NCBI RefSeq assembly: GCF_024228675.1
Contig: NZ_CP100461.1
Location: forward strand, 2,353,398 to 2,417,397
DNA: 64,000 bases
Direction: 5' to 3'
Source of the DNA: Salinigranum marinum
GTDB lineage: Archaea > Halobacteriota > Halobacteria > Halobacteriales > Haloferacaceae
In this document: positions 32,147 to 50,453 of the stretch, piece after piece
How positions within the stretch are numbered: the stretch's first letter is position 1
How the letters are laid out: every line of letters begins with the position of its first letter
The notes under the pieces: generated by a model
What the model saw: the letters and a program-made list of their open reading frames with translations, nothing else
What the model was told of the DNA's origin: nothing
The model's database searches: none
Position numbers and translations under genes: made by a program

Positions 32147-33343
32147 TCACTCTTCCGTCGACTTCAGCGCGCGGAGTTCGTCGAGGTAGCGGTAGTAGAC
32201 GGAACCCCACATGATCGGGCGGCACGTGCGCCCGATCGACACCCGTTCGACCGTCGGGTCGTCAGCCTCGCCTGTCACGGCCGCGCCAACGGACATGGTC
32301 CCTTTGGGGTGGCCGAGCGTCGTCCACTCCTCGTCGGGGTTGCGGACGACCTCGTTCGGGATCGTCCCAGGGAGTCGTGCCGTCGCACCGAGACAGAGCC
32401 CGCTCGTCATCGCGTACGCGTGGTGGGGGCTCTGCATGCTGATGACTCGCGCCGTGATGTCGATCTCGCTCGCGTCGACCCGTTTGTCGATCGAACAGTC
32501 GTACGACTGCGGTTCGGAGACGAACGCGATGTGCGGGAAGATGGGGTAGTCGTACAGCGCCTCGCCCGGCTCGTCGACGAGGCCGAGTTCGACGCACACC
32601 TCGCCGCGGATGCGCTCTAAGCGGTCCATGATCTCGGGGTCGCTCTCCAGTTCGGCGGGGAGTTCGGTCCCGGTGAGCCCGATATCCGACGCGCGCACGA
32701 ACGCCACGACGTTCGTCACGTCGACGATCGACACGTCCAGCGCCTCGCCGTCGACCGTGATCCGATCGACGGCGTTGCCGGTCGGAAGCAGCGAGTCGAG
32801 GACGCCGCCGGCCGGGTCGAGGAAGTGCGAGTCCACCCGCGCGCCGGTGCCCGGAACGCCGTCGATCGAGTAGTCGCCGTAGACCGCGGGTTCGCCGTCG
32901 GCGACGGGCACCTCCTGTTCGATCAGCGCGTCGGCGTTCGTGTTGTACAGCCGCACCGTCGTCACCGGGTCGGTCGCCTCGACGAGGTTCTCGAGGATCG
33001 CGAAGCCGCCGACCGCGGCGGTGAGGTTCCCGCAGTTGCCGCCCCACTCGATGACGGGGTTCTCGACGCCGACGCCGCCGAACGTGTACTCGACGTCCGC
33101 GTCGTCGCGGTCGGACGTCGAGACCATCATGATCTTGCTCGTGTGCGAATGCGATCCGCCGATGCCGTCGACCTGCAAGGGATCGGGCGAGCCGTACAGT
33201 TCCAAGAGGAAATCCTCGAACGATTCGTGATCCGGGCCGATCGGCAGATCCGACTTCCGCACGAACAGCCCCTTGCTGGTCCCGCCCCGCATCAACAGCC
33301 CGTCGACTCGGCCCTGTTGCTCGCTGTCTCGCTGTGTTTCCAT
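32147..33343 (-). CDS. PrpF-family methylaconitate/oxalomesaconate-type isomerase
   Basis: 398 residues. The N-terminal LLMRGGTSKGLFVR (17-29) and GGNCGNLTAAVGGFA (101-115) motifs are those of PrpF and 4-oxalomesaconate tautomerase. The repeat of the diaminopimelate-epimerase fold follows with MQSPHHAYAMTSGLCLGATARLPGT and GHPKGTMSVGA near the C terminus. PrpF moves the double bond of trans-aconitate-like acids. In this island it could act with MmgE/PrpD and ICL/PEPM enzymes. It is divergent from the lyase at 33467 and has a minus-strand TATA-like TTTATT about 30 nt before the ATG. Confidence 0.9.
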   Translation of the reverse strand: METQRDSEQQGRVDGLLMRGGTSKGLFVRKSDLPIGPDHESFEDFLLELYGSPDPLQVDGIGGSHSHTSKIMMVSTSDRDDADVEYTFGGVGVENPVIEWGGNCGNLTAAVGGFAILENLVEATDPVTTVRLYNTNADALIEQEVPVADGEPAVYGDYSIDGVPGTGARVDSHFLDPAGGVLDSLLPTGNAVDRITVDGEALDVSIVDVTNVVAFVRASDIGLTGTELPAELESDPEIMDRLERIRGEVCVELGLVDEPGEALYDYPIFPHIAFVSEPQSYDCSIDKRVDASEIDITARVISMQSPHHAYAMTSGLCLGATARLPGTIPNEVVRNPDEEWTTLGHPKGTMSVGAAVTGEADDPTVERVSIGRTCRPIMWGSVYYRYLDELRALKSTEE

Positions 33344-33466: not shown

Positions 33467-34351
33467 GTGGCTCGCCACGTGAAGCAGACGACGCGGTTCC
33501 GGCGGCTGATCGAGGGACCCGAAATCCTCGTCGCGATGGGCGGGTACGACGCGCTCTCGGCGAGCCTGATCGAGCGGGCGGGCGGGGAGGTGGTGTACAT
33601 GAGCGGCTCGTCCGTCTCGACGGCCGTCCACGGTCGGCCCGACGTGGGGCTGACGACGATGACCGAGATGGTCGACCGCGCCCGCGAGATGGTCAGCGCC
33701 GTCGACGTGCCCGTGTTCTGTGACGCTGACACGGGCTACGGCAACCCGATCAACGTCGTCCGGACGGTCGAGGCGTTCGAGCGCGCGGGCGTCGCGGGCA
33801 TCCACATCGAGGACCAGACGTTCCCGAAACGCTGTGGCCACTTCGACGAGAAAGGGGTCGTCCCGACCGCGGAGATGGTCCAGAAGATCCGGGCGGCGAC
33901 CGACGCCCGCGCGGACGACGACTTCACGATCATCGCCCGCACCGACGCCCGGGCGGTGACGAGCCTCGACGACGCCATCGACCGCTGTTTCGACTACGTC
34001 GACGCGGGCGCGGACGTGATCTTCTTCGAGGCACCGCGGTCGGAGGCCGAACTCCGCCGCGTCGCCACGGCGCTCGGCGACGAGGCCCCACTGCTCGCGA
34101 ACATGACCGAGGGCGGGGAGACGCCGCTTTTCACCGCCGAGCAGTTCGCCGGCTTCGGCTTCGACGTCGTCCTCTACCCCGCGACGGGGTTCAAAGCCGC
34201 CGCGAAGGCGCTCGACGAGGTGTACGCGGAGATCGCCGAAACGGGCACGCAGGCGGGCGTGATGGACGACCTGCTCACGTGGGAAGAACGGAACGAACTC
34301 ACCGGACTCGCCGAGATCACCGACCTCGAACGCCGGTACACGAGCGAGTAG
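33467..34351 (+). CDS. ICL/PEPM-superfamily carboxylic acid lyase (PKRCGH type)
   Basis: 294 residues from a GTG at 33467; a GTG at 33479 is equally possible and would suit the TATA-like box. DADTGYGNPINV (86-97) binds Mg, and FPKRCGH (119-125) carries the catalytic Cys123, as in methylisocitrate lyase, 2,3-dimethylmalate lyase and oxaloacetate acetylhydrolase. Expected reaction: retro-aldol splitting of a 2-hydroxy-dicarboxylate to a C3 keto acid plus a carboxylate. Next to a PrpF-type isomerase and CoA-processing genes, a substituted malate is the likely substrate. Intact. Confidence 0.9.
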   Translation: MARHVKQTTRFRRLIEGPEILVAMGGYDALSASLIERAGGEVVYMSGSSVSTAVHGRPDVGLTTMTEMVDRAREMVSAVDVPVFCDADTGYGNPINVVRTVEAFERAGVAGIHIEDQTFPKRCGHFDEKGVVPTAEMVQKIRAATDARADDDFTIIARTDARAVTSLDDAIDRCFDYVDAGADVIFFEAPRSEAELRRVATALGDEAPLLANMTEGGETPLFTAEQFAGFGFDVVLYPATGFKAAAKALDEVYAEIAETGTQAGVMDDLLTWEERNELTGLAEITDLERRYTSE

Positions 34352-34358
34352 CGCTCTC

Positions 34359-35153
34359 TCACTCCCAGGGCCGGTCGAACTCCGGCTCCCGGCGCTCGGT
34401 AAAGGCCGCGACGGCCTCGTGGTGTTCGGGGTCCGTGATGCAGTCGTACTGCCGCTCGTGGGCCGCCTGGGCGTACTCGCCGAACGACTGGTTCGCGTCG
34501 ATGAGCGCCTTGGTGTGTCGCATCGCCGTCGCCGGCTTGTCGCGGAGTTCGTTCGCGAGGTCGCGCGCGGCCGTCATGAGGTCCTCGTCGTCGACGGTCT
34601 CGACCACCAACCCGATCGCTTCGGCGTCCGCCGGTTCGATGTCCCGCCCGGTGAGCAGGTACTCCTTCGCCTTGCTCTCGCCGATCAGCCGTGGGAGGGT
34701 CCAGCCGCCCCCGTCGCCCGGGACCAGCCCGATGTCGACGAACTGGGTCCGGAAGAAGGCGCTCTCGGCCATGACCCGGAGATCACACGCGAGGGCGAAG
34801 TCACAGCCCGCGCCGACCGCGGGGCCGTTGACCGCCGCGACAGTGGGCTTCGACCCGAAGTGGAGGAGGCGGGTGACGTGCTGGACCTTCCAGAGGTGCG
34901 CGCCGTAGCGGAACGCGTTCTCTCGGTCCTCGCGGCCGTCCATCCCCGAGACGTCCGCGCCGCTACAGAAGCCCTTGCCGCGCCCCGTGAGGAGGACGAC
35001 GTAGGCGTCGTCGTCGTCGAACGCCTCGAGGAGGCACTCGTTGAGTTCGACCAGCATCTCCGGGTCGAACGCGTTGTACACGTCCGGCCGGTCGAGGACG
35101 AGTTCGGCTCTGCCGTCCCGCACCGCGTAATCGATGTGTTCGTACGCGCTCAT
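34359..35153 (-). CDS. Enoyl-CoA hydratase/isomerase family protein
   Basis: 264 residues of crotonase fold. The oxyanion segment is GRGKGFCSGADVSGMD (about 55-72) and NGPAVGAGCDFALACDLRV (about 108-126). In the position of the second Glu of classical hydratases it has FRTQFVDIGLVPGDGGG, closer to isomerases of the PaaG kind. It could therefore be an isomerase or a hydratase with an unusual active site. It is followed (upstream) by the CoA-transferase and acyl-CoA dehydrogenase genes on the same strand. A dienoyl or branched enoyl-CoA is a reasonable substrate. Confidence 0.88.
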   Translation of the reverse strand: MSAYEHIDYAVRDGRAELVLDRPDVYNAFDPEMLVELNECLLEAFDDDDAYVVLLTGRGKGFCSGADVSGMDGREDRENAFRYGAHLWKVQHVTRLLHFGSKPTVAAVNGPAVGAGCDFALACDLRVMAESAFFRTQFVDIGLVPGDGGGWTLPRLIGESKAKEYLLTGRDIEPADAEAIGLVVETVDDEDLMTAARDLANELRDKPATAMRHTKALIDANQSFGEYAQAAHERQYDCITDPEHHEAVAAFTERREPEFDRPWE

Positions 35154-35213: not shown

Positions 35214-36407
35214 TCACTCGCCGTCGGCGGAACCCCGGAGCCGCTGGAGTTCCTCGGGGCCGTAGCCGGCGATCTCCGCGAGCACTTCTTCGGTGTGTTC
35301 GCCCAGGAGCGGTGCCTGGGTGACCTCGGGATCGTCGACGGCCGCGAACTTGATCGGCATGCCCGGAACGGGGATCTCCGCGCGTCCCTCGCCCTGGTTC
35401 CGGAGGTCGTTCACCATCCCCCGCTCGCGGAGGTGTGGGTCGTCGACGATCTCCTCGACCGTCTGGACCGGCGCGCAGGGGACGCCCGCGTCGAGGAGGG
35501 CGTCGACGACGGCGTCTTTCGTCCGTCCGTCGAGCCACGAGTCGACGAGCGCGTCGATCTCCTCGAGTCGCTCCGCGCGAGCGGCCTTCGAGTCATATCC
35601 CTCAGCATCGATCAGATCCGGGCGGTCCATAAGTCCCGCGAGCCCCGTCCAGTGGCGCTCAGAGACACAGATAATCGCGACGTAGCCGTCGTCGGCCTCG
35701 TAGACGTTGTACGGCGCGATCGAGAGCCCGGAGTGTCTGTTGCCTGTCCGCGGCGGGGTGTCCTTCCCGGCGACCCACGCGGAGACGGGCGAGGCGAGCG
35801 TCGGATACATACAGTCGTACATCCCCACCTCGACGTAGTCGCCTTCGCCGGTTCGTTCGCGGCGAAAGAGCGCGCTGACGACGCCCAGCGTGAGGTGGAC
35901 CGCGCCGACGAAGTCACAGATCGCCGGCCCCGCCTTGACGGGCTTTTGGTCGGGGTAGCCCGTCGTGTGGATCACGCCACTCATCGCCTGGACCGTCAGA
36001 TCCATCGCGGGGTACTCGGCGTACGGGCCGCTGTCGCCGTAGCCCGAGCCGTGGGCGTAGACGAGTTCTGGGTTCACCTCGCTGAGGGTGTCGTAGCCGA
36101 GGCCCAGTTCGGCCATCTTGCCGGTCGCGAAGTTCTCGATCAGGACGTCGCACTCGGCGACGAGATCCGTCAGCGCCTGCGTCCCTGCCGACGATTTGAG
36201 GTCGAGCGTGATCCCGCGCTTGGTGGCGTTGAGATACTGCAACTGGGGTGGTTTGCCGTCGTCGCTCCGGGTGCGGACGTTCTCGCCCCACGGCGGTTCG
36301 ACCTTGACCACGTCGGCACCGAGATACGACAACAACAGTCCGGTGTAGCCGCCCTGGTAGATCTGTCCGAGATCGAGGACGCTGATGCCCGACAGAGGCT
36401 GTGACAT
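35214..36407 (-). CDS. Class III CoA-transferase (CaiB/BaiF family)
   Basis: 397 residues from the ATG at 36407, 28 nt after a TATA-like ACTTATC (minus strand). It opens LSGISVLDLGQIYQGGYTGLLLSYLGADVVKVEPPWGENVR, the family start. The catalytic Asp is in AEYPAMDLTVQAMSGVIHTTG, and VGMYDC and NRHSGLSIAPYNVYEADDGYVAIICVSERHW are conserved segments. It transfers CoA from an acyl-CoA to a carboxylate, such as itaconate, mesaconate, formate or carnitine derivatives. Together with the acyl-CoA dehydrogenase and hydratase beside it, it would activate and oxidise an acid released by the pathway. Confidence 0.92.
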   Translation of the reverse strand: MSQPLSGISVLDLGQIYQGGYTGLLLSYLGADVVKVEPPWGENVRTRSDDGKPPQLQYLNATKRGITLDLKSSAGTQALTDLVAECDVLIENFATGKMAELGLGYDTLSEVNPELVYAHGSGYGDSGPYAEYPAMDLTVQAMSGVIHTTGYPDQKPVKAGPAICDFVGAVHLTLGVVSALFRRERTGEGDYVEVGMYDCMYPTLASPVSAWVAGKDTPPRTGNRHSGLSIAPYNVYEADDGYVAIICVSERHWTGLAGLMDRPDLIDAEGYDSKAARAERLEEIDALVDSWLDGRTKDAVVDALLDAGVPCAPVQTVEEIVDDPHLRERGMVNDLRNQGEGRAEIPVPGMPIKFAAVDDPEVTQAPLLGEHTEEVLAEIAGYGPEELQRLRGSADGE

Positions 36408-36508: not shown

Positions 36509-37639
36509 TCAGTCCAGGCCGTGTTTCTTCAGGTCCCGGGCGATCATGTTCCGCTGTACCTCGACGGTGCCGCCGGCGATGCGCCAGCCGCGCACCCACC
36601 GGTAGAGGTATTCGAGGGGGCTGGCCTTCGAGTAGCCGATCGCGCCGTGGATCTGGAGCGCCTCGTCGACGGCGAACTGGCCGGCCTCGTTGCCCATCAC
36701 CTTCGCCATCGACGTTTCGAGCCGCGAGGGGGAGCTGTCGACGGCGTTGGCCGCCGCCCGGTAGATCAGGAGGCGGGCGGCGTCGAGCCGGGTCGCCATG
36801 TCCGCGAGCTTCCACTCGATCCCCTGGAAGTCGGCGAGCGGCTGGTCGAACTGCGTCCGGGTCTTCGCGTGTTCCATCGCCTTGTCGAAGGCGTTCAGTC
36901 CGCAGGCGACGCACATCATCGCGTTGTGACAGCGCTCGACGTTGAACTCGATCAGCAGCTGTTTGAACGACTCGCCGCCGCCGTAGACGAGGACGTTCTC
37001 CTCGGGCACCTCACAGCCGTCGAGCAGGAGTTCGTACTGGACGTGGCCGGCCATGTTCTCGTCACCCCGCCCGAGGGCGAAGCCGGGGGCGTCCTTGTCG
37101 ACGACGACCGCGCCGACGTTGCCGTCCTCGAACCGGGCGTAGACGAGGAACGCACCGGCGACGTCGGCCTTGGTGATCCAGAGCTTCGACCCGTCGAGGA
37201 CGACCGTGTCACCGTCGACTCTGGCACTCGTCTCCATCGCCCCTGCATCGGAGCCCGCCCCCGACTCGGAGACGGCCACCGACATGATCAGATCCCCCGC
37301 ACACACCGCCGGCAGGTACCGCTCTTTCAGGGTGTCGCTCCCGAGCGCTGCGATGGCCCGCGGCGCCCCCATCGACGACCGCGAGAGGACGTGCGCCGTG
37401 TCGGGGCAGATCCGTCCGACCGCCTCCTGGGCGAGGAGCACCTCGACGACCGAGTATCCCCCGCCGCCGTACGCCTCCGGGAGCGCGATGCCGAGCAACC
37501 CCTGCTCGGCGAGCAGGTCCTTGTTCGCCGCGGGGAACTCGTCTTCCCACGTGAACGCGCTGTCGGCGAACTCCTCTTCGGCGAGGCGCTCGGCGGCTCC
37601 CTGGATCATCCGCTGCTCGTCCGTGAGCTGGAACTGCAT
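36509..37639 (-). CDS. Acyl-CoA dehydrogenase
   Basis: 376 residues from the ATG at 37639, 27 nt after a minus-strand TTATAT box. Flavin and substrate segments are normal: IMSVAVSESGAGSDAGAMETSA (ACAD signature 1), KLWITKADVAGAF, and IHGAIGYSKASPLEYLYRWVRGWRIAGGTVEVQRNMIARDL (signature 2). It oxidises an acyl-CoA to the 2-enoyl-CoA, passing electrons to ETF. It lies 100 nt upstream of the CoA-transferase on the same strand and downstream of an MmgE/PrpD gene. Confidence 0.92.
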   Translation of the reverse strand: MQFQLTDEQRMIQGAAERLAEEEFADSAFTWEDEFPAANKDLLAEQGLLGIALPEAYGGGGYSVVEVLLAQEAVGRICPDTAHVLSRSSMGAPRAIAALGSDTLKERYLPAVCAGDLIMSVAVSESGAGSDAGAMETSARVDGDTVVLDGSKLWITKADVAGAFLVYARFEDGNVGAVVVDKDAPGFALGRGDENMAGHVQYELLLDGCEVPEENVLVYGGGESFKQLLIEFNVERCHNAMMCVACGLNAFDKAMEHAKTRTQFDQPLADFQGIEWKLADMATRLDAARLLIYRAAANAVDSSPSRLETSMAKVMGNEAGQFAVDEALQIHGAIGYSKASPLEYLYRWVRGWRIAGGTVEVQRNMIARDLKKHGLD

Positions 37640-37728: not shown

Positions 37729-39099
37729 TCAGATCACGAGCGCGTCGACGAGCGGGTCGACGCTGTCGAGGGTCGGGAGGGAGCGACACTGCTCGGTCAC
37801 CCGTTCGATCTGGTCGTCGCCGAGGAGCCCCCCACAGAGGTCGGCGAACTTCCCCGCGAGCTGGGCGTCGGTCATCGGCCGCTCCGGGTGGCCGAGGGGG
37901 GCGTCGACCCGCGAGACGTAGTCGGTGCCGTCGACCGTGATGGTCGTCCGGGAGGGGATGTGTCGGGGGCGTTCGCGGCGGTGGGCGGTGAGGTCGGGGT
38001 CCTCGGCGACCGTCACCCGCTCCATCACCGCGTGGACGTCACTCCCGCGGAGGCGGTCGGGCTCGAACTGCCGCGGCGTCACCTCGCCGTCGACGATGGC
38101 GACCGCCACGCTGTAGGGGATGCTGTGGTCCGCCGTCTCTCGGGTCTGGTCGGTTCCCCACTTCTCGGGCGTCGCGAGCGCGCCCGCGGCGCGCTCGAAG
38201 ATGTCGACGTGGACCGCGTCGATCTCGTCGGGCGCGATGTCGTTGTCGGCGAGCAGTTCGAGCGCGCCCGTCACCGGCGAGTGGATGTAGTAGCCGGTGG
38301 CGAAGTACTTGATCCCGGTCTCGAGGATCCGGTAGTCGTCGCCGGTCGGCGTGCCGCCGAAGTCGAGGTCGTGGTCCGAGACGACCGCCTGGAAGCCGAA
38401 GTCGCCCTCGAAGACGGCGCTGGGGCCGGTGATGCCGGCCCGCGCCATCTGACACGCCTGGATCGCGTTGTGCGTGACGTACGGGTGGGCGATCCCCTTC
38501 CACATCGAGACGTCGCCCCGGCGGCTGATGTACAGCGGCGCGTTCGACGCGCCGGCGATGCCGAACGCGTCGACGAGTTCGTCGATCGACAGCCCCATCA
38601 ACGCCCCCGCGGCGGCCGTACTGGAGTACGTCCCCCAGGCGACGTAGTCGAAGCCGCGCTCCCTGACGGGGGCCTGATCCAGCCCGCGACACTGCACCTC
38701 GTAGGCGACGACGATCGCCTCGGCGAGGTCGCGGCCCGTCGCGCCCTCGCTCTGGGCGACCGCGAGCAGGGGCATGATGTGATCGCTCGGGTGGCACGCG
38801 CCGCCCGTCGCCATGTAGCAGTCGTTGTAGTCGAGGTACCGCGCCATCGTCCCGTTGATCAGCCCGGCGTACTCGACGGCCACGTCGGTGTCCGTGCCGA
38901 CGACCGTCGCGGCCGGCGTCCCGCGGCGACCGCCGTACTCGTCTCGGAGCGCCTTGGCCGGGGGGCTCGTGAACGCGCCGATGCTACAGCCGATCGTGTC
39001 GAACAGCAGGTCGCTCGTGGTGTCGACGACTGCCTCGTCGAACTCATCGAAGGAGATCCGGTCGACGTACTCCGCCAGATCGCGGCTCAGTGAACTCAT
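37729..39099 (-). CDS. MmgE/PrpD family protein (copy 1)
   Basis: 456 residues from the ATG at 39099. All-helical first domain with YLDYNDCYMATGGACHPSDHIMPLLAVAQ and the SMWKGIAHPYVTHNAIQACQMARAGITGP region, and the later KYFATGYYIHSPVTGALEL and ADHSIPYSVAVAI segments, are family landmarks. Known members are 2-methylcitrate dehydratase, cis-aconitate decarboxylase and iminodisuccinate epimerase. Which reaction this one does is unknown. It closely resembles the copy at 61247 (same CHPSDH and SMWKG motifs). Same-strand neighbour of the acyl-CoA dehydrogenase (about 90 nt). Confidence 0.92.
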   Translation of the reverse strand: MSSLSRDLAEYVDRISFDEFDEAVVDTTSDLLFDTIGCSIGAFTSPPAKALRDEYGGRRGTPAATVVGTDTDVAVEYAGLINGTMARYLDYNDCYMATGGACHPSDHIMPLLAVAQSEGATGRDLAEAIVVAYEVQCRGLDQAPVRERGFDYVAWGTYSSTAAAGALMGLSIDELVDAFGIAGASNAPLYISRRGDVSMWKGIAHPYVTHNAIQACQMARAGITGPSAVFEGDFGFQAVVSDHDLDFGGTPTGDDYRILETGIKYFATGYYIHSPVTGALELLADNDIAPDEIDAVHVDIFERAAGALATPEKWGTDQTRETADHSIPYSVAVAIVDGEVTPRQFEPDRLRGSDVHAVMERVTVAEDPDLTAHRRERPRHIPSRTTITVDGTDYVSRVDAPLGHPERPMTDAQLAGKFADLCGGLLGDDQIERVTEQCRSLPTLDSVDPLVDALVI

Positions 39100-39216: not shown

Positions 39217-39858
39217 ATGGGCTCGAACGACACGGAGACGGAACAGTCGAGAGCGACGGCGGTGTTGGATCCCCGGGGGACGGTGAACGCGGCAAGCGAT
39301 CCGATCGCCGACCGCCTCGGATCGCTGGCGGGGGCGACGGTCGGCCTGCTCGACAACTCGAAGGCCAACGCCGACGTGTTGCTCGCCGAGATCGGGCGGC
39401 TCCTCGAATCGGAGTACGGCGTGGCCGAGACGCTCTCGCGGCGCAAGGACAAGAGCCCGATCCCGGCGGATTCGATCGCGACACAGCTTCACCAGCGGTG
39501 TGACGCGGTGGTCAACGCCTACGGCGACTGCGGCTCGTGTACGTCGTGGTGCGTCTACGACAGCGTCCACCTCGAACGCGCGGGGACGCCGACGGCGACG
39601 GTGAACAGCGACGAGTTCGTCACGCTCGGCCAGTCGGAGGCCCGGTCGCTCGGCCTCCCGGGCCTCCCGCTCGTCACCGTCCCGCACCCGATGGGCGGCG
39701 TTCCCAAGGCCGAGGTTCGCGAGCGCGCCCGGGAGGTCCTCCCCGAGATCGTCGCGGTGTTGACCCGCGACCGTGACGCGCTCGAAGCCGACTACGAGAA
39801 CCGCTACCTCGACGCCGACGACGCGGTCGACACGTCGACCCTGCGGTGTCCGATCTGA
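39217..39858 (+). CDS. UGSC-family protein (Cys form of a predicted selenoprotein family)
   Basis: 213 residues. YGDCGSCTSWCVYD (about 102-115) holds CGSC at 105-108, aligned with the UGSC motif of the family, in which bacteria may use selenocysteine at the first place. The codon here is TGC, so Cys is used. LDPRGTVNAASDPIADRLGSLAGATVGLLDNSKANADVLL at the start and VPHPMGGVPKAEVRERAREVLPEI near the end are conserved. The paired Cys suggest redox or thiol catalysis; no activity is established that I know of. First gene of a four-gene operon. Confidence 0.85.
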   Translation: MGSNDTETEQSRATAVLDPRGTVNAASDPIADRLGSLAGATVGLLDNSKANADVLLAEIGRLLESEYGVAETLSRRKDKSPIPADSIATQLHQRCDAVVNAYGDCGSCTSWCVYDSVHLERAGTPTATVNSDEFVTLGQSEARSLGLPGLPLVTVPHPMGGVPKAEVRERAREVLPEIVAVLTRDRDALEADYENRYLDADDAVDTSTLRCPI

Positions 39859-39872
39859 CCGGAGGGGGCAGG

Positions 39873-40937
39873 ATGGAGTTCACCTCGGAGCGGATCGACA
39901 TCGCGGCCGACGACGTCGAGGCCGTCACGGACCAGTTGTACCGCGCGGGGATGACCGACGGCCTCCCCGTCGTCCCCCCGACGCCCGAGCGCGTCGAGCG
40001 CATGCTCGCGGGGAGCCACCGAGAGCCCGACGAAGCGCTCGGCGTGGTGCCCCCGAAGTACGGCGAGGCGACCGTCGAGACGGTCGCGATCAACGCGGTG
40101 CTGGCGGGTTGTCGGCCCGCGTACATGCCAGTGATCGAGGCGGCGGTCGAAGCGATGACCGACGAGTCGTTCAATCTCTACGGGGTCAACGCCACGACCC
40201 ACCCCGTCGCGCCGTTGCTCGTCCTCAACGGCCCGATCGTCGACGAGTTGAACGTCAACTACGGCTACAACGCGTTCGGGCAGGGCTGGCGGGCGAACGC
40301 GACGATCGGCCGCGCGGTCCGGCTCCTCCTCGTCAACGTCGGCGGCGGCGTCCCCGGCGAAATGGACCGAGCGACCCACGGCCATCCCGGGAAGTACAGC
40401 TACTGCGTCGCCGAGAACGAACGGGCGTCGCCGTGGGAACCCCTGCACGTCCGCCGCGGCTTCGACGCCGACGAGAGCACGGTGACGGTGCTGGGGGCCG
40501 ACGCGCCCCACGAGATCAACGACCACGTCCACGGCGACGCGGCGGGGGTACTGGGGGTCGCAGCGGACGTCTTCGCCACAGTCGGCAACAACAACACCCA
40601 CCACTCGGGCGGCGAGATCGCGCTCGTTCTCGGCCCGGAGCACGCCGAGACGGTCGCGGGCGACGGCTGGACGGTCGAGGACGTCCAGTGGTATCTGTAC
40701 GACCAGGCGCGGAACACGGTGGCCGACCTGCGGGCCGCGGGGGTCTACGACAACTACACCCTCCACCGGCGGTTCCGACTGGAAGAGTCCAGTGACGCCC
40801 GGATCCCGCTGGTCGAACGTCCCCAAGACGTCGTCGTGTTCGTCGCCGGCGGCGCGGGCAAACACTCGCTGGCACTGCACTCGTTCGGCGAGACGCGCTC
40901 GGTCACGAGGTCGATCGACGGGGGTGACGGCGAGTGA
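39873..40937 (+). CDS. Uncharacterised UGSC-partner protein
   Basis: 354 residues from the ATG at 39873, which has GGAGGGGG 5 nt upstream; an earlier ATG at 39846 overlaps the previous gene and has no such site. Conserved-looking segments are TDGLPVVPPTPERVERMLAG, VPPKYGEATVETVAINAVLAGCRPAYMPV, GVNATTHPVAPLLVLNGP, WRANATIGRAVRLLLVNVGGG and TVGNNNTHHSGGEIALVLGPEHA. I recall similar proteins next to UGSC genes in bacteria, but no function. Its Cys, His and Asn clusters could form a substrate or metal site. It overlaps the next gene by GTGA. Confidence 0.8.
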   Translation: MEFTSERIDIAADDVEAVTDQLYRAGMTDGLPVVPPTPERVERMLAGSHREPDEALGVVPPKYGEATVETVAINAVLAGCRPAYMPVIEAAVEAMTDESFNLYGVNATTHPVAPLLVLNGPIVDELNVNYGYNAFGQGWRANATIGRAVRLLLVNVGGGVPGEMDRATHGHPGKYSYCVAENERASPWEPLHVRRGFDADESTVTVLGADAPHEINDHVHGDAAGVLGVAADVFATVGNNNTHHSGGEIALVLGPEHAETVAGDGWTVEDVQWYLYDQARNTVADLRAAGVYDNYTLHRRFRLEESSDARIPLVERPQDVVVFVAGGAGKHSLALHSFGETRSVTRSIDGGDGE

Positions 40938-41770
40938 TCCCCGCGGGCGCGATCGACTGCCACGTCCACGCCGCGCCGTCGCTGTGGGAACGCCGGCACG
41001 ACGTACCGACGCTGCTCGAACGGGTGCGAGACTCGCCGCTCGGCGGGATCGTCCTCAAGAGCCACTTCGGCAACACGTTCGAGGCCGTTCGGCTGGGGCG
41101 GGCCGCCGTCCCTGGCGTCGACGTCTACTCGTCGCTCACGCTCAACACGTTCGTCGGCGGGCTCAACCCATCGGCGGTCGAGCTGGCGGTCGAGACCGGC
41201 GCGAGCGTCGTCTGGCTCCCGACGTTCAGCGCCGCGAACTTCGAGACGGACCGTCCGTACCCGTTCCGCGGGCAGACGCTGACCGTCACGGACGACGCGG
41301 GCGAGCTCGTGCCTGAGGTGCTCGAAATCCTCGACGTGCTCGACGACGCCGACCGCCGGCTCGTCCTCGGCAACGGCCACGTCAGCCCGGCCGAGACCGA
41401 CGCCGTCCTCGACGCGATCGACGAGCGCGGCACGGCCGTCGACTACCTCGTCACCCACCCGGACTCGGCGTTCATGGGGCTGTCGCTCGCCGACCAGATC
41501 GAGCTGGCGAGCCGCGGTGCGTACGTCGAGAAGTGTTACCTCCCTATCGTAAAGGGCGATGTCACGACCGAGGCGATGGCCGAGGGGATCGCCGAGATCG
41601 GGCCCGAGCGGTGCGTCCTCTCGACCGACCACGGCCAGCCGACGAACCGGTCGCCGCCCGACGCCTACGCCGCGTTCGTCGAAGGGCTACGCCGACACGG
41701 CGTCTCCGCGTCCGCGGTCGAGAGGATGAGCCGGACCGTCCCGCGCGCCCTGCTGGGCGAGCCGCGCTGA
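40934..41770 (+). CDS. DUF6282-family amidohydrolase-like protein
   Basis: 278 residues from a GTG that overlaps the previous stop (GTGA). Metal-binding start DCHVHAAPSLWERR (8-21) and the later VTHPDS and STDHGQPTNRSPPDAY segments indicate a metal-dependent TIM-barrel hydrolase fold. LKSHFGNTFEAVRLG matches the DUF6282 LKSH motif. Members likely hydrolyse or decarboxylate small substrates; the actual reaction is unknown. Translational coupling makes it a functional partner of the UGSC pair. Confidence 0.85.
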   Translation: MIPAGAIDCHVHAAPSLWERRHDVPTLLERVRDSPLGGIVLKSHFGNTFEAVRLGRAAVPGVDVYSSLTLNTFVGGLNPSAVELAVETGASVVWLPTFSAANFETDRPYPFRGQTLTVTDDAGELVPEVLEILDVLDDADRRLVLGNGHVSPAETDAVLDAIDERGTAVDYLVTHPDSAFMGLSLADQIELASRGAYVEKCYLPIVKGDVTTEAMAEGIAEIGPERCVLSTDHGQPTNRSPPDAYAAFVEGLRRHGVSASAVERMSRTVPRALLGEPR

Positions 41771-41830
41771 GCGGAGGAAGCGAGCCACCGAGACCGAGCG
41801 TTTATTCCGGACCGCCGCGTCGACGAGCCA

Positions 41831-43183
41831 ATGACCACAGAGGAGTCCGCAGTGACCGCTCGACTCGCCGCGTTCTGTGCGACGCTGGGGTACGACGATC
41901 TGGACGAGGCGACCGTCGAGGCGACCACGACGGCATTCGTCGACACGCTCGGTGCCGCCTACGCCGGGACGACGACCGACGCCGGGGCGCGGATGCTGGG
42001 GTACGTCGAGACGCTCGGCGGCGACGAAGCCACCGTGATCGGCGGCGACGGACCGGCGCTCGCACACCTCGCCGCGCTCGCGAACGGAACGACGGCACAC
42101 GCGCTGGACGTCGACGACGGCCATCGCGGCGCGTCCGCCCACCCGGGGAGCGCCGTCATCCCCGCCGCGCTGGCGCTCGGGGAGAAACACGACGCCTCGG
42201 GCGAGACGCTGGTGACGGCGATCGTCGCCGGCTACGAGGCGATGGTCCGGACGGCCGTCGCGGTACAGACCTCACACCGCGAGCGCGGCTTTCACGCGAC
42301 CGCGACGACCGGCTGTCTGGGGGCCGGCGCGGCCGCGAGCCGCGTCCTCGGCCTCGACGAGACCGAGACCGCACACGCGCTCGGGCTGGCGGGGACGCAG
42401 GCGGGCGGCCTCTTCGAGTTCATGACGAAGGGGTCGATGGCGAAACGGTTCCATCCAGGGCGGGCGGCGATGGCCGGCGTGATCGCCGCGGAACTCGCCG
42501 CGACCGGCTTCGACGGCCCCGACACGATCATCGAGGGCGACGACGGCTTCGCGACGGCGTTCTCGGACGAGTACGACCTGTCGACGTTCGACGGTCTCGG
42601 CGACCCATTCGCCGTGACCGAGAGCTACGTCAAGCCGTACCCCTGCTGTCGACACATCCACGGCCCGATCCAGGCGATCCTGGCGATCCGCGCCGACGGG
42701 ATCACCCCGGCCGACGTGGACAGGGTCGAGGTCCAGACGTACCGTTCGGCGTCGTACCACGACAGCGCCGAGATCGACAACCTGCTCGACGCGCAGATGA
42801 GCATCCCCTACGGCGTGGCGGTCGCGCTGGCGACGGGCGAGGCGTCGCTCGAACGGTTCGATCCGGGCCACGCCGACCGCGACGACGTCGCCAGGGTGCT
42901 CGCGCGGACGACCGTCGTCGCGACCGACGAGATGGAGGCGCTTTACCCCGAGACGCGGCCGGTACGGGTCGTCGTCGAGACGACAGACGGCCGCCGGATC
43001 GAACGCGAGGTCGCCTACCCGAAGGGTGCGGCGGAAGCACCCCTTTCGAACGACGAACTCGCCGCGAAGTTCCGCGATCTTACCCAGGAGACGCTCTCGG
43101 CGGCGGACCAGGATGCGTGCTTCGAGCGGCTCTACGCACTCCCCGCGTGCGACAGCGTGCGCACGCTCGCGGCAGGGCTGTAA
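41831..43183 (+). CDS. MmgE/PrpD family protein (copy 2, UGSC operon)
   Basis: 450 residues; ATG 60 nt after the DUF6282 stop and about 28 nt after a TATA-like TTTATT, so it can also be transcribed on its own. HALDVDDGHRGASAHPGSAVIPAALALGE and FMTKGSMAKRFHPGRAAMAGVIAAELAATGFDGP are the family motifs, but of a different subgroup from copies 1, 3 and 4 (HPG and KRFHPG instead of HPSDH and MWKG). YVKPYPCCRHIHGPIQA is the conserved substrate loop. Substrate unknown. Confidence 0.92.
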   Translation: MTTEESAVTARLAAFCATLGYDDLDEATVEATTTAFVDTLGAAYAGTTTDAGARMLGYVETLGGDEATVIGGDGPALAHLAALANGTTAHALDVDDGHRGASAHPGSAVIPAALALGEKHDASGETLVTAIVAGYEAMVRTAVAVQTSHRERGFHATATTGCLGAGAAASRVLGLDETETAHALGLAGTQAGGLFEFMTKGSMAKRFHPGRAAMAGVIAAELAATGFDGPDTIIEGDDGFATAFSDEYDLSTFDGLGDPFAVTESYVKPYPCCRHIHGPIQAILAIRADGITPADVDRVEVQTYRSASYHDSAEIDNLLDAQMSIPYGVAVALATGEASLERFDPGHADRDDVARVLARTTVVATDEMEALYPETRPVRVVVETTDGRRIEREVAYPKGAAEAPLSNDELAAKFRDLTQETLSAADQDACFERLYALPACDSVRTLAAGL

Positions 43184-43235: not shown

Positions 43236-43739
43236 TCAGTCGAGGACGAGCCCGTCGGGGTGCTGTTCGTAGTGGGCGAGCAGTCCGCCGGCGTCGAAGA
43301 TCGACCGGATCTCGGCCGGCATCGGCTCCGTGTCGCGCGTCTCGTCGGTCGTCTCGTTCGTGAACGTCCGGCGTTCGAGATCGAGCGACACCTCGTCGCC
43401 GCCCGAGACGATCGCGGTCACGCCGGGACAGGTGACGACCGGGAGACCGATGGCGATCCCGTTGCGGTAAAAGAGCCGCGCGAACGACTCGGCGACGACC
43501 GCGCTCACCCCGGCGACTTTCAGCGTCTTCGGCGCAGTCTCGCGGCTCGACCCGGAGCCGAAGTTCTCGCCGGCGACGACCACGTCGCCGGGCTCGAATC
43601 GCTCAAAGAAGCCGGGGTCGATCGGCTCGAACAGGTGAGTGGCGATCTCCTCGTACGACTGGCCGAAGTAGTCGCTGGGCGTGATGTAGTCGGTGTTGAC
43701 GTCGTCGCCGAACGTGTGAGCAGCCCCTTCGAACGCCAT
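43236..43739 (-). CDS. Aconitase-family small subunit (LeuD-like)
   Basis: 167 residues. HTFGDDVNTDYITPSDYF is the standard swivel-domain start and AGENFGSGSSRETAPKTLKVAGVSAVVAESFARLFYRNGIAIGLPVV the conserved core (GSGSSRE). These small subunits close over the Fe-S active site of isopropylmalate, homoaconitate or dimethylmaleate hydratases. The gene starts 2 nt after the large-subunit stop. Placement in an acid-degradation island, away from leucine genes, argues for a catabolic dehydratase. Confidence 0.92.
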   Translation of the reverse strand: MAFEGAAHTFGDDVNTDYITPSDYFGQSYEEIATHLFEPIDPGFFERFEPGDVVVAGENFGSGSSRETAPKTLKVAGVSAVVAESFARLFYRNGIAIGLPVVTCPGVTAIVSGGDEVSLDLERRTFTNETTDETRDTEPMPAEIRSIFDAGGLLAHYEQHPDGLVLD

Positions 43740-43741
43740 CG

Positions 43742-45034
43742 TCACACCTCCCTCGGGTCGGTGACCCGACCCGTGATCGCCGTCGCCGCGGCGGTCTCCG
43801 GACTCGCCAGGTAGATCTCGGAGTCGTTGTGGCCCATCCGACCGCGGAAGTTCCGGTTCTGCGCCGCCAGACACCGCTCGCCCTCGCCGATAACGCCCAT
43901 CCCCAGGCCGGGACAGGCCCCACACGTCGAGTTCGTGACGGTCGCGCCGGCGTCGGTGAACGTCCGGATGATCCCCGCGCGCTCGGCGCGGCCGTAGATC
44001 TCCCGCGACGCCGGCGTCACGATGAAGCGCGTCATCGGCGCGACCTCGTGGCCGTCGAGGATCGCCGCGGCCGCGGCGAGGTCCTCGAACTTCCCGTTCG
44101 TACACGACCCCAAGAACACCTGGTCGACCTCGACCGGGTCGACGTCGGAGATCGGGTGGACGTTCCCGACGTCGTGCGGGAGCGCGACCTGCGGTTCGAG
44201 ATCGGAGACGTCGATCCGATGGCTCTCGCTGTAGGTGGCGTCCTCAGCGTGGAACACCTCGAACGGCTCGTCGGTGCGGGCCTCGACGTAGTCGGTCACG
44301 ACGTCGTCGACGGGCGTGAAGCCGAACTTCGCCCCGAGTTCGATCGACATGTTGGTCAGCGTGATGCGGTCGTCGATCGGGAGCGCCTCGACAGTCGGCC
44401 CGCGGAACTCGATCGCCTTGTACCGCGCGACGTCGGTGCCGAACTCGCCCGCGATGTGCAAGAGGAGGTCCTTCGCGGAGACGCGGTCGCCGAACGAGCC
44501 CGCGACGACGAACTCGATCGTCTCCGGCACCCTGAACCAGGCCTGGCCGGTCGCCAGCGCGTAGGCCATATCCGTGTCGCCGATGCCCGTGCTGGCCGCG
44601 CCGAACGCCCCGTGGCTGACCGTGTGCGAGTCGGTACCCACGATGAGTTCGCCGGGGCGGACGTGGCCCTTCTCGGGGAGCACCTCGTGGCTGATCCCCG
44701 TCCCCACGTCGTAGAAGTGCGCGTCGGGGTGGTCGCGGACGAACGCGCGAATGCCGACCTTCTCGTCGGCGTTGTTCACGGTGTGCGACGGTCCGACGTG
44801 GTCCAACACCACGACGAGGCTCGACGCGTCGTGCAGTTCCGAGACGCCCATCTCTTCGAGGAGATGGACGACGCCCGGCGTGTGAATGTCCTGCGTCATC
44901 GTGAGGTCGACCTCGCAGACGACGTGGTCGCCGGGCGAGACGTGATCCGTTCCGGAGGCGTTGGCGAGGAGCGCCTCTGCCATCGTCTGTCCCATAACGA
45001 CCGCATCGCCGGGCATCCATTTAATCGTTGACAT
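43742..45034 (-). CDS. Aconitase-family large subunit (LeuC-like)
   Basis: 430 residues from the ATG at 45034 (an ATG at 45016 is possible). VGTDSHTVSHGAFGAASTGIGDTDMAYALATGQAWFRVPE is the conserved substrate region. The 4Fe-4S ligands are in FLGSCTNGK and STCGACPGLGMG. The subunit binds the cluster and dehydrates 2- or 3-hydroxyacids. With the LeuD-like partner the pair might be a 3-isopropylmalate, citraconate or 2,3-dimethylmaleate hydratase; the last reaction is carried out by this family in nicotinate fermentation and is followed by an ICL/PEPM lyase, a combination also present here. Confidence 0.93.
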   Translation of the reverse strand: MSTIKWMPGDAVVMGQTMAEALLANASGTDHVSPGDHVVCEVDLTMTQDIHTPGVVHLLEEMGVSELHDASSLVVVLDHVGPSHTVNNADEKVGIRAFVRDHPDAHFYDVGTGISHEVLPEKGHVRPGELIVGTDSHTVSHGAFGAASTGIGDTDMAYALATGQAWFRVPETIEFVVAGSFGDRVSAKDLLLHIAGEFGTDVARYKAIEFRGPTVEALPIDDRITLTNMSIELGAKFGFTPVDDVVTDYVEARTDEPFEVFHAEDATYSESHRIDVSDLEPQVALPHDVGNVHPISDVDPVEVDQVFLGSCTNGKFEDLAAAAAILDGHEVAPMTRFIVTPASREIYGRAERAGIIRTFTDAGATVTNSTCGACPGLGMGVIGEGERCLAAQNRNFRGRMGHNDSEIYLASPETAAATAITGRVTDPREV

Positions 45035-45153: not shown

Positions 45154-46368
45154 TCACAGGCGGACGACGGCGAGCACGAGTCCGACCGAGACGGTGACGG
45201 CGAACATGAGAAACGCCTCGGAGAGGTAGCCGTAGTCGCCGAGGACGCCGACGAGCACGGGGCTCGTCGCCCCGAGCAGCATCCACGTCGCCTTCAGCGC
45301 GCCCATGCCCGTCCCCTGGACGTTCGCGGGGAGCGAGTCGGCGATGTACGTCTGGGTGAGCACCGCACAGCCGCTCACGCTGCTGAGCACCAGCGTGAGG
45401 AGCGCGAGTGGAACCGTCCCCGTGACGAACGGGAGCGCGACGAATCCGACGAGGCTCGGTGCGAGCACGCCGACGAGCGTCACCCGGATTCCGTACCGGT
45501 CCATGCAACTGCCCGCGATGGGCTGGACGACGAACGACGCGACGAAGAAGAGGCCGAACAGCGAGGCCGCGAGGCCGGGCGACAGCCCCTTGGCGTCCGC
45601 GAGCAAGAGGGGATAAAACGAGACGAACCCCTGATACGTAAAGGAGAAACAGAGCTGGATCCCGACGACGGTCGGGATCGACGCGCGCCGGACGCCCGCC
45701 GTGATCCGCTCGATCGTCCGCATCGAGAACCCGCCGGCGTCGCTCGTCGCGGGCGAGGTCCGGGTCGGGACGCTCCACCGGATCCCGACAGCGACGCAGA
45801 CGAACAGTGGGGCGAGGATGCCGAAGCTCACCCGCCAGGACGTGGCCGTCGCGACGAGGACGGCCAGCACGGGGAGGACGGCGTTGCCCGCGCTCCCGGC
45901 GGCCATGGTGAGGCCGATCGCCGACCCGGCCCGGTCGCCGTACACGTCGGTGAAGACGGTGAAACGGGTCGGCCCGTAGAGGGCGGTCGCGAGGCCGAAA
46001 CCGGCCGTGCCGACGAACAGCAACAGCGGGGTGGTCGCCGCGGCGACACCGAGCACCGCGACCGCGGCACAGAGGGTGCTGACGACCAGGATCCGCCCCT
46101 CGCCGAGCCGGTCGCCGAGGACGCCGCCAGGCACGTGTCCCAGGGCGTACGACACCCACAGCACCGTCAGGAGCAACCCGGTCGTCGAGAGGCTGAAGCC
46201 GAAGCTCTCCCTGAAGAAGGCGACGAGCGCTGGGTAGACCAGGCGGACGCCGAACGACATGAACCAGCCGGCGCTCACGGCCACGAGGATCCAGCCCCGG
46301 TCGCCGCTGAGGAGCTCTCGCGTCGCCGCTGTGACGTTCCTGATCGCTCGTCGATGTCGTGAGTTCAC
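45154..46368 (-). CDS. MFS transporter (copy 1)
   Basis: 404 residues from a GTG at 46368 with GGAGG about 9 nt upstream. Twelve spans, with VSYALGHVPGGVLGDRLGEGRIL and DRYGIRVTLVG as the two loop motifs between spans 2-3 and 8-9. Close paralogue of the protein at 49003: both start RGWILVAVSAGWF.S.G-like and share LYGPTRFTVFTDVYGDRAGSAIGLTMA. Located next to the LeuCD-like genes on the same strand, so it probably carries their substrate or product. Confidence 0.9.
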   Translation of the reverse strand: MNSRHRRAIRNVTAATRELLSGDRGWILVAVSAGWFMSFGVRLVYPALVAFFRESFGFSLSTTGLLLTVLWVSYALGHVPGGVLGDRLGEGRILVVSTLCAAVAVLGVAAATTPLLLFVGTAGFGLATALYGPTRFTVFTDVYGDRAGSAIGLTMAAGSAGNAVLPVLAVLVATATSWRVSFGILAPLFVCVAVGIRWSVPTRTSPATSDAGGFSMRTIERITAGVRRASIPTVVGIQLCFSFTYQGFVSFYPLLLADAKGLSPGLAASLFGLFFVASFVVQPIAGSCMDRYGIRVTLVGVLAPSLVGFVALPFVTGTVPLALLTLVLSSVSGCAVLTQTYIADSLPANVQGTGMGALKATWMLLGATSPVLVGVLGDYGYLSEAFLMFAVTVSVGLVLAVVRL

Positions 46369-46501
46369 GGTCTGTGTCCCTCCAGTTGAGCCATCGCCCT
46401 CTTGCGTGTTCCGCCTCCGGCCAATTGTGGTAACAACTCCGGAACGACCCCGTGTGTTTTTGCGTTCGTGCCCCGACTGCGAAGCCAGCACGCTTCGAAC
46501 C

Positions 46502-48106
46502 ATGACCGAGCCACTGTCACCTCAGGCGCTCCGTACAGCGCTCGATACCGACGATCCCCTCGCCCTGCTGGACGTCCGCGACTCGCTCGACTACGTCGAG
46601 GGCCACATCCCCGACTGTACGTTCGTCCCCCGGCGCGACCTCGAACGCCGACTGCCCGCGCTCGTCCCGAACCGAGCGACCCCGATCGTCCTCTGTGACC
46701 GACGCGGCGACCGCGCTCCCCGGGACGCGCGGTGGCTCACGGAACTCGGCTACGAGGACGTCTCCTTTCTCGACGGCGGGGTCGAGGCGTGGTCCGAGGC
46801 GGGGTTCGATCTCGTCGAGGCGGTCGGGCACGTCCACGCGACGGCGCTCAACTACACCAGCAAGCGGTTCGGCGAACGGGTCGCGGCCGAACGGGACCTC
46901 CCCACGATCGGGCCGTCGGAGTTGGCCGACCTGCGCGACGGGGCGGACCCGCTCGTGATCGACGTGCGGAACCCCGAAGAGTACCGCCGCTGGGGGACGG
47001 TTCCGGACGCGGTCAACGTCGAGGGCGTCGACCTCGCGCTGTACGCCGAGGAACTCCGCGACGACGACCAGCCGATCGTCGTGAACTGCGCGGGCCGAAC
47101 CCGGAGCATCATCGGGACCGCGACGCTCGACGCCCTCGGCGTCTCCGAGGTGTACGAACTCGAAAACGGGACGATGGGCTGGCAGTTGGCCGGTCACGAC
47201 CTGGCCGACGGGCCCGGCCGGCCGGCGGAGCGAGCACCGGACACCGAGCGCGTCGCGCGCCTCCGCGAGTCGGCCGAAGCGTTGCTGGACGACGCGGGCG
47301 TCTCGCGCCTGCCACCCGCTGACGTTGCCGCCCTCCCGGAGTCGGTTCCCCCCACGCAGTCGGTGTCCGTGATCGACGTCCGCCGCGAGGCCGAGTACGA
47401 CGCGGGGCACCTTCCGGACGCCATCTCCGTGCCGGGCGGCCAACTCATCCAGACGGCCGAGGCACATCTGGCGGTCCGTGACGCCGAGATCGTCCTCGTC
47501 TCGGAGACGCACGTCCGGTCGGCGATCACCGCCTACTGGCTTGCGGAGATGGGCTTCGCGCGTGTCTCCGTTCTCGACGGCGGGATCGAGGCGTGGACCG
47601 ATGACGGCAGGCCCCTCGTCGAGAGCTCTGACGCCTCCGAGCGGATCGACGCGGACCTCGTCGACGAGCGCGTCGCGTGCGTCGGTCCCTCGACGCTCGC
47701 GGAGCGCCTCGAACGCGAGGCCGTGACCGTCGTCGACGTGGACGACAGCGAGGCCTTCGTCGACGCGCACGTCCCCGGGGCGCGGTGGACCTCGCGGTAC
47801 GACCTCGACGCCGACCTCGAAGCCGGGCGGATCGAGACGGACGACCCGATCGTCCTGAGCTGTCGGGACGGGACGCGGTCGGCGTCCGCCGCGGCCGCGG
47901 TCGACGCCGCGGTCGAGGGGCTTGACGTCGCGGCGCTTCGGGGTGGCGTCGACGCGTGGCGCGAGGCCGGCTTCGCCACCGACGACGGCGAGGAGGGAAT
48001 GGTCCGCGCGCCCCGCCGTGCCGAGCGGAAGCCGTACGGCCAGGGGCGAGCGGAGATGCGCCAGTACCTCGACTGGGAGGAGCACCTCGTCGAGGGGAGT
48101 GAGTGA
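46502..48106 (+). CDS. Four-domain rhodanese-like sulfurtransferase
   Basis: 534 residues with four rhodanese modules: about 8-105, 135-235, 270-375 and 390-500. Active-site loops: VLCDRRGDRAP (C65), VNCAGRTRSIIG (C196), VSETHVRSAIT (Ser334, no Cys) and LSCRDGTRSAS (C454). Three domains could carry persulfide; the third is likely structural. Family members move sulfane sulfur or handle thiosulfate. Why it lies in an organic acid island is unclear. The start ATG is the first that aligns with a rhodanese N terminus. Confidence 0.9.
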   Translation: MTEPLSPQALRTALDTDDPLALLDVRDSLDYVEGHIPDCTFVPRRDLERRLPALVPNRATPIVLCDRRGDRAPRDARWLTELGYEDVSFLDGGVEAWSEAGFDLVEAVGHVHATALNYTSKRFGERVAAERDLPTIGPSELADLRDGADPLVIDVRNPEEYRRWGTVPDAVNVEGVDLALYAEELRDDDQPIVVNCAGRTRSIIGTATLDALGVSEVYELENGTMGWQLAGHDLADGPGRPAERAPDTERVARLRESAEALLDDAGVSRLPPADVAALPESVPPTQSVSVIDVRREAEYDAGHLPDAISVPGGQLIQTAEAHLAVRDAEIVLVSETHVRSAITAYWLAEMGFARVSVLDGGIEAWTDDGRPLVESSDASERIDADLVDERVACVGPSTLAERLEREAVTVVDVDDSEAFVDAHVPGARWTSRYDLDADLEAGRIETDDPIVLSCRDGTRSASAAAAVDAAVEGLDVAALRGGVDAWREAGFATDDGEEGMVRAPRRAERKPYGQGRAEMRQYLDWEEHLVEGSE

Positions 48107-50268: not shown

Positions 50269-50453
50269 GGTGTTGTCGTTGTCCCTCCGTTCGCGGAATC
50301 CGTATAATTAGCTTGTGGAAGCGGTGGTTGTCAGCGACGGCAGGGGGGTCATACGTCACCGCCGGTTTCCGTGTTCGGGTCGTCGCCAGCCTCGGCGTCC
50401 GGGCCGTCACCGGCTCCGGTATCTTTAGTGTCGCGTGCCGCGGAGAGCGGGGT

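Follow-up and report, generated by a model that had tools for sequence, protein, structure and literature searches.

A cysteine-form UGSC protein and a conserved partner protein form the two-gene core of an operon in the haloarchaeon Salinigranum marinum

The UGSC family of selenoproteins has been listed since 2008 as a major family without a function, and a literature search found no function for it. Reviews place these proteins among the thioredoxin-like (Trx-like) selenoproteins (PMC2398784, PMC13188914), and the GOS paper describes UGSC fused to a domain called 'Unknown_1', possibly the same as the partner protein considered here. Another pertinent class consists of GrdB and PrdB, selenoproteins with a U-x-x-C active site that are paired with a pyruvoyl subunit, GrdE or PrdA. 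A GrdB-type enzyme has been proposed to cleave the C-F bond of fluoroacetate (PMC10838667). Here, a four-gene operon of the haloarchaeon Salinigranum marinum is described, in which a UGSC-family gene precedes the genes for a partner of no known family, a DUF6282 protein and an MmgE/PrpD-family protein (PrpD for short). The operon lies in a stretch of 64,000 nucleotides (NCBI RefSeq assembly GCF_024228675.1, contig NZ_CP100461.1, positions 2,353,398 to 2,417,397 of the forward strand), referred to below as the window, to which all positions apply. Kinship of UGSC with GrdB/PrdB and an obligate two-subunit arrangement were not found stated in the accessible parts of the UGSC literature.

The original prediction, made from the letters of the window, gave the four genes, their coordinates and gaps and a CGSC motif at residues 105-108, all of which proved exact (Table 1). 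UGSC and partner are 14 nt apart, partner and DUF6282 share a GTGA overlap, and 60 nt separate DUF6282 from PrpD. A longer GTG start option exists for the partner at 39846, and homologues favour the ATG at 39873. The operon is more than a chance arrangement, since its reading frames show strong GC3 bias and the entire cluster is syntenic in a second species of the genus (G003) at ~80-86% amino-acid identity. The UGSC protein exceeds both curated cut-offs of its family, 25 bits for PF24696 and 125 bits for NF041046 (that of PF19799, the DUF6282 family, is 26.8 bits). Both UGSC models accept cysteine forms, and selenocysteine (Sec, U) is not required for family membership.

The operon core is a two-gene unit of UGSC and partner, linked across phyla and often encoded as one polypeptide. 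Among 118 haloarchaeal genomes related to that of the window, the two genes occur in an identical set of five, a coincidence with a probability of 6e-9 on the assumption of independent genomes. Searching GTDB genomes with the partner profile recovered at least 568 relatives, and the 80 loci kept are those of the nearest relatives and no random sample. In 72 of the 80, UGSC lies on the same strand within 1 kb of the partner, upstream of it in 57 and downstream in 15. Single-chain fusions of the two are found in 15 loci as 17 open reading frames; a count of 25 was discarded as too high, as genuine TGA stops had been read through, and 17 is the stricter figure. Across 16 bacterial genomes the copy numbers of UGSC and partner correlate closely (log r 0.98). 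The linkage of the two genes, which the original prediction had proposed to settle by a neighbourhood survey, is thus borne out. The predicted structure of a natural fusion (pLDDT 92, pTM 0.92) suggests a defined packing of its UGSC and partner parts, and the unfused proteins of the window very probably form a complex.

Of 108 aligned UGSC sequences, 99 have U at the first motif position and 7 have C; the U is encoded by an in-frame TGA in the majority of bacterial loci. The window gene has a TGC cysteine codon at this position and no Sec, its motif reading C105-G-S-C108. Each of the 16 bacterial genomes tested has a SelB that exceeds the cut-off, whereas none of the three haloarchaeal ones does; no SelB of the window's genome (G000) reaches it. 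Since the site is mostly U in bacteria and SelB is absent from the three haloarchaea tested, the window protein represents the cysteine form of the family. Elsewhere in the alignment, P19 and G106 are present in all 108 sequences and C108 and F134 in 106. A plasmid of Sporomusa termitida (L157, 6323-8047) encodes a natural UGSC-partner fusion that reads DMGTSS at the UGSC site and adjoins FAD oxidoreductase, MFS and aconitase X genes. In the partner tree, eight haloarchaeal sequences form one supported group (95/90) amid bacterial sequences, and a ninth (G052) sits on a long branch with unsure placement. Such nesting, together with the rarity of the pair in haloarchaea, points to gene transfer, presumably into the haloarchaea.

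The neighbours of the pair agree with the carboxylic-acid catabolism setting that had been read from the window. TctC occurs in 31 of the 80 loci, CaiB in 12, enoyl-CoA hydratase (ECH) in 10, PrpD in 9, SDR in 8, acyl-CoA dehydrogenase in 6 and LysR in 5. The 16 bacterial genomes carry from 1 to 132 partner and from 1 to 119 UGSC genes each. The extreme is a Chloroflexota metagenome-assembled genome of 5.0 Mb (G119, the genome of locus L072), which has at least 132 partner and at least 119 UGSC genes, the latter a lower bound as 119 of 208 candidates were scored; strain mixing in the assembly may affect the copy count. Each of the 22 UGSC genes on one of its contigs (359 kb) is accompanied by a partner no more than 600 bp away and contains exactly one TGA, which falls in the motif (UGSC, UGAC, UGGC or UGTC) in every sequence inspected over that region. 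The largest predicted prokaryotic selenoproteome comprises 63 genes according to a 2026 review, a figure that the UGSC set of this genome would roughly double. SBP_bac_5, a solute-binding family, is represented 37 times on one contig of the same genome, and 24 of these copies lie within 3 kb of a pair. They may serve as transport components dedicated to individual pairs, which would mean many substrate-specific enzymes. The pair probably acts as a catabolic enzyme; the likeliest reading, a (seleno)thiol enzyme for small imported carboxylic acids that works within islands of CoA-transferase, acyl-CoA dehydrogenase and lyase genes, has about an even chance of being right.

Profile comparison connects UGSC to GrdB (hhalign P 87%, E 4e-6) and to PrdB-like proteins (P 85%, E 7e-6). 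Both alignments cover the C-terminal domain of GrdB/PrdB, place U on U and match an HPxG motif. TIGR01917 matches the same stretch of UGSC weakly (12.5 bits against a cut-off of 602), and PF07355 (GrdB) has no match in the genome of the window. UGSC is not classed as a GrdB, and it appears to use the same active-site motif. UGSC paralogues of the Chloroflexota genome (L134-L151) carry UGTC, bridging the motif to the UGTC of GrdB. In the fusion model, the UGSC part is predicted to be a five-stranded alternating alpha/beta, flavodoxin-like domain with the motif loop at a helix start, and Foldseek/VIA gave only generic flavodoxin-like matches for it (best Z 9.8). Thioredoxins and the Asp/Glu racemase superfamily are absent from the fold matches listed for the fusion, which excludes neither, and a PDB sequence search with the UGSC and partner profiles returned nothing meaningful.

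The predicted fold bears on one rival explanation, which takes UGSC for an oxidoreductase of the thioredoxin-like or peroxidase-like type and the partner for either an anchoring subunit or a protein on which UGSC acts. Such a thiol-redox pair would account for the UxxC motif, for the Trx-like grouping in the reviews (PMC2398784, PMC13188914) and for trxB genes near two copies, the Cys-type pairs of Variovorax and Cupriavidus. The element order predicted for UGSC appears to differ from that of thioredoxin, however, and more than 100 copies beside substrate-binding proteins and catabolic genes fit substrate-specific enzymes better, making a pure redox role quite unlikely.

The partner matches no Pfam or NCBIfam family, nor did any family emerge consistently when 53 homologues were scanned against Pfam. 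Its conservation is pronounced, with D29, G120, R147 and E181 present in all 117 homologues, N142 in 116, W188 in 115 and C80 in 113. Predicted on its own with AF2 (pLDDT 92.9, pTM 0.93), the model has no Foldseek match in the PDB at E<=1e-3. Three assignments were rejected: cyclic amide hydrolase (Toblerone fold, E 0.013), a weak match; chorismate mutase or a fumarate hydratase domain (Z ~6), likewise not trusted; and a relative of GrdB or GrdE, to neither of which profile comparisons show any relation (the probability against the GrdE profile, PF09338, for the pyruvoyl subunit GrdE/PrdA, is 0.2%). The frequency of Cys80 also suits a different chemistry, a two-thiol acid/base isomerase or racemase in which Cys/Sec105 and partner Cys80 would face each other across a carboxylate with no net redox change. 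In the Asp/Glu racemase-maleate isomerase superfamily, two cysteines face each other across the substrate, and the predicted UGSC topology, in which the cysteine follows strand three where a helix begins, may correspond to one half of such a protein; isomerases and hydratases are among the neighbours as well. On the other hand, a costly Sec is hard to explain for acid/base catalysis, and the equal conservation of Cys108 (106/108) points to redox or resolving chemistry, so that an isomerase or racemase seems unlikely.

The favoured chemistry, put forward tentatively and by analogy, is a nucleophilic thiol attack with GrdB-like C-X cleavage. UGSC and partner would be two subunits of one (seleno)thiol enzyme. 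UGSC would supply both the reactive residue (Cys105 in the window protein, Sec in bacterial forms) and the resolving Cys108, at what profile alignment suggests to be the site of the U-x-x-C of GrdB/PrdB. The partner would form the substrate pocket, where Arg147, Glu181, Asp29, Asn142 and Cys80 may bind and polarize the carboxylate; it would thereby fill the place of the pyruvoyl subunit GrdE/PrdA without sequence relation to GrdE. As in GrdB/PrdB, the selenium or sulfur nucleophile would attack a small, imported carboxylic acid at an activated carbon, displacing a substituent, after which Cys108 and a thioredoxin-type donor could restore the thiol; the trxB genes near the Variovorax and Cupriavidus pairs are in keeping with such a donor. 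Judging from the recurrent neighbours, the product may feed a pathway of CoA-transferase, acyl-CoA dehydrogenase, hydratase and ICL/PEP-mutase lyase. DUF6282 would perform an accessory step in the haloarchaeal version.

Several observations weigh against this scheme. The GrdB/PrdB match is distant, falling below the family cut-offs and at P 85-87% rather than above 95%. With a partner unrelated to GrdE, glycine reductase offers no template for how the substrate is activated. GrdB users also differ from the haloarchaeon, which presumably lives aerobically. The Sporomusa site, with neither U nor C, means that some members may act without a thiol, and the linkage to trxB amounts to two cases only. 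Eight of the 80 loci have no linked UGSC. At least one of them, L023, borders the end of a contig; five come from Poribacteria (L027, L042, L044, L046, L051), where no UGSC lies near the partner in the retrieved DNA. The Poribacteria partner homologues have a shorter aligned length.

DUF6282 is a recurrent third gene in Natrialbaceae. The contiguous order UGSC-partner-DUF6282 is found in the window, G003, G043, Natrialba asiatica, Natrinema zhouii and N. caseinilyticum. DUF6282 occurs in 7 of the 118 haloarchaeal genomes, 4 of them UGSC-positive (p ~2e-5 under independence, but the genomes are not independent), and in G084 it lies ~13 kb away. In Haladaptatus halobius the distance is ~3 kb; a plasmid of this species (L156, 2754-8000) carries partner and DUF6282 within a single cluster of CoA-transferase and CoA-ester-lyase genes, and no UGSC gene is annotated between the two. 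Outside the haloarchaea, DUF6282 adjoins the pair in two Chloroflexota (L016, L075), and over all 80 loci it appears in 3. The predicted linkage is supported for Natrialbaceae and these Chloroflexota, but not as a general rule. Residues H10, H12, K42, H149, H175 and D232 are invariant among 13 homologues, and the pattern of H10xH12, K42, H149, H175 and D232 is that of the metal ligands (HxH, Lys/Glu, His, His, Asp) of the amidohydrolase superfamily. On this signature, DUF6282 is a putative amidohydrolase-type metal enzyme. No PDB sequence relative of it was found, nor did a literature search yield a paper naming it.

The fourth gene is a local addition to the operon. PrpD stands behind DUF6282 in the window and, in the same order, in G003, i.e. 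only in the genus of the window; it is not found there in Natrialba asiatica, Natrinema zhouii or N. caseinilyticum (L007, L154, L155), and the 9 loci of the 80 that have PrpD hold it within ~8 kb. Its scores against the PrpD equivalog models, 59.2 against a cut-off of 950 bits and 27.6 against 575, are far too low for these assignments. The original prediction had joined all four genes in one conserved dicarboxylate-processing step, and the tight packing in the window and the identical order in G003 are what such a pathway would produce. With PrpD missing behind DUF6282 in the three Natrialbaceae, and with PrpD and DUF6282 in so few of the sampled loci, a conserved four-gene step is very unlikely. 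Of the thiol-dependent joint step proposed with it, the part for UGSC and partner remains plausible on the CGSC/UGSC motif and that for DUF6282 possible, while that for PrpD is unsupported.

The operon keeps further company in Natrialbaceae, where acyl-CoA dehydrogenase and MFS genes recur; the window, G003, Natrialba and N. zhouii also share CoA-transferase III, enoyl-CoA hydratase and an ICL/PEP-mutase lyase nearby. The window has three ICL/PEP-mutase paralogues (30411-31340, 33524-34351 and 50250-51341) and four MmgE/PrpD copies (starting at 37729, 41831, 52757 and 61247), which with PrpF and the aconitase-like subunits constitute a carboxylate island. Within ~27000-54000, G+C rises from ~0.61 to ~0.69 near 28 kb, at the start of this island. 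A methylcitrate-cycle pathway of PrpD, PrpF, aconitase-like and ICL/PEP-mutase enzymes was considered and rejected, as the PrpD and aconitase-like genes are not kept outside the genus. Adjoining the MFS gene, 46259-48106 encodes a 615-aa protein with four rhodanese domains that is kept in G003 at 65% identity.

Table 1. Genes of the operon and of its surroundings in the window
Feature	Position	Strand	Basis
ICL/PEP-mutase family lyase	30411..31340	-	PF13714 3.3e-53
PrpF-family isomerase	32147..33343	-	PF04303 1.2e-109
ICL/PEP-mutase family lyase	33524..34351	+	PF13714 5.4e-47
Enoyl-CoA hydratase-like protein	34359..35153	-	Translation resemblance; Natrialba copies PF00378
CoA-transferase family III, conserved neighbour	35214..36404	-	PF02515 2.5e-110
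Acyl-CoA dehydrogenase, conserved neighbour	36509..37639	-	PF00441/02770/02771; 71% identical in Natrialba asiatica
Divergent MmgE/PrpD-family gene, second copy	37729..39099	-	PF03972, PF19305
UGSC-family protein, Cys form, 213 aa	39217..39858	+	PF24696 200.9 bits, 2e-59; NF041046 152.2 bits
CGSC motif codons, residues 105-108	39529..39540	+	Translation; site of Sec in most bacterial homologues
Partner (putative subunit), 354 aa, no known family	39873..40937	+	No Pfam/NCBIfam match
DUF6282 protein, 278 aa, amidohydrolase-type metal signature	40934..41770	+	PF19799 191.2 bits, 2e-56
MmgE/PrpD-family protein, 450 aa	41831..43183	+	PF03972 + PF19305 (MmgE_PrpD N/C 8e-64, 1e-40)
Aconitase/IPM-isomerase-like small (43236-43760) and large (43757-45025) subunits	43236..45025	-	PF00694, PF00330
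MFS transporter, conserved neighbour	45154..46503	-	PF07690; relatives in L007, L120

Beyond the original prediction, the analysis brings in the Sec/Cys duality, the GrdB/PrdB kinship, naturally occurring fusions and very large expansions of paralogues. An obligate partner, a link to the GrdB/PrdB active site and a place in catabolic islands together make the function of UGSC directly testable, and the haloarchaeal Cys-form operon, which needs no selenium machinery, is a convenient entry. The at least 119 UGSC genes of a single Chloroflexota genome suggest that much selenium use in some uncultured bacteria serves UGSC chemistry. In its widest form, the proposal is that the pair represents a two-subunit (seleno)enzyme of a new class, its partner having a new fold, that it radiated to more than 100 substrate-specific copies in some uncultured bacteria for the catabolism of recalcitrant organic acids, and that gene transfer brought it to haloarchaea, which use it in a cysteine form, a combination to which we give somewhat less than an even chance.

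Set beside the described systems, the window gene is a clear member of the UGSC family (PF24696, NF041046), a selenoprotein family reported from marine metagenomes, from which it differs by carrying Cys for Sec in an archaeon without SelB above the cut-off. The fourth gene, with both Pfam domains, belongs to the MmgE/PrpD family of 2-methylcitrate dehydratase, cis-aconitate decarboxylase and iminodisuccinate epimerase, but it lies far under the equivalog cut-offs of 2-methylcitrate dehydratase PrpD. The fluoroacetate reductase of Cloacibacillus (farACEB) likewise places an MFS gene beside a GrdB-type two-subunit enzyme with a proposed C-X cleavage of a small acid (PMC10838667), although that system uses true GrdB and GrdE homologues. 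With GrdB (PF07355) and PrdB themselves, UGSC has in common the U/C-x-x-C at the same profile position, followed by a stretch like E-[KR]-x-G-[IV]-P-T and by HPxG, and a second subunit encoded next door. Only the C-terminal domain is common to them, however, at low similarity; the UGSC partner is not GrdE, and the UGSC pair resides in catabolic islands of presumably aerobic organisms.

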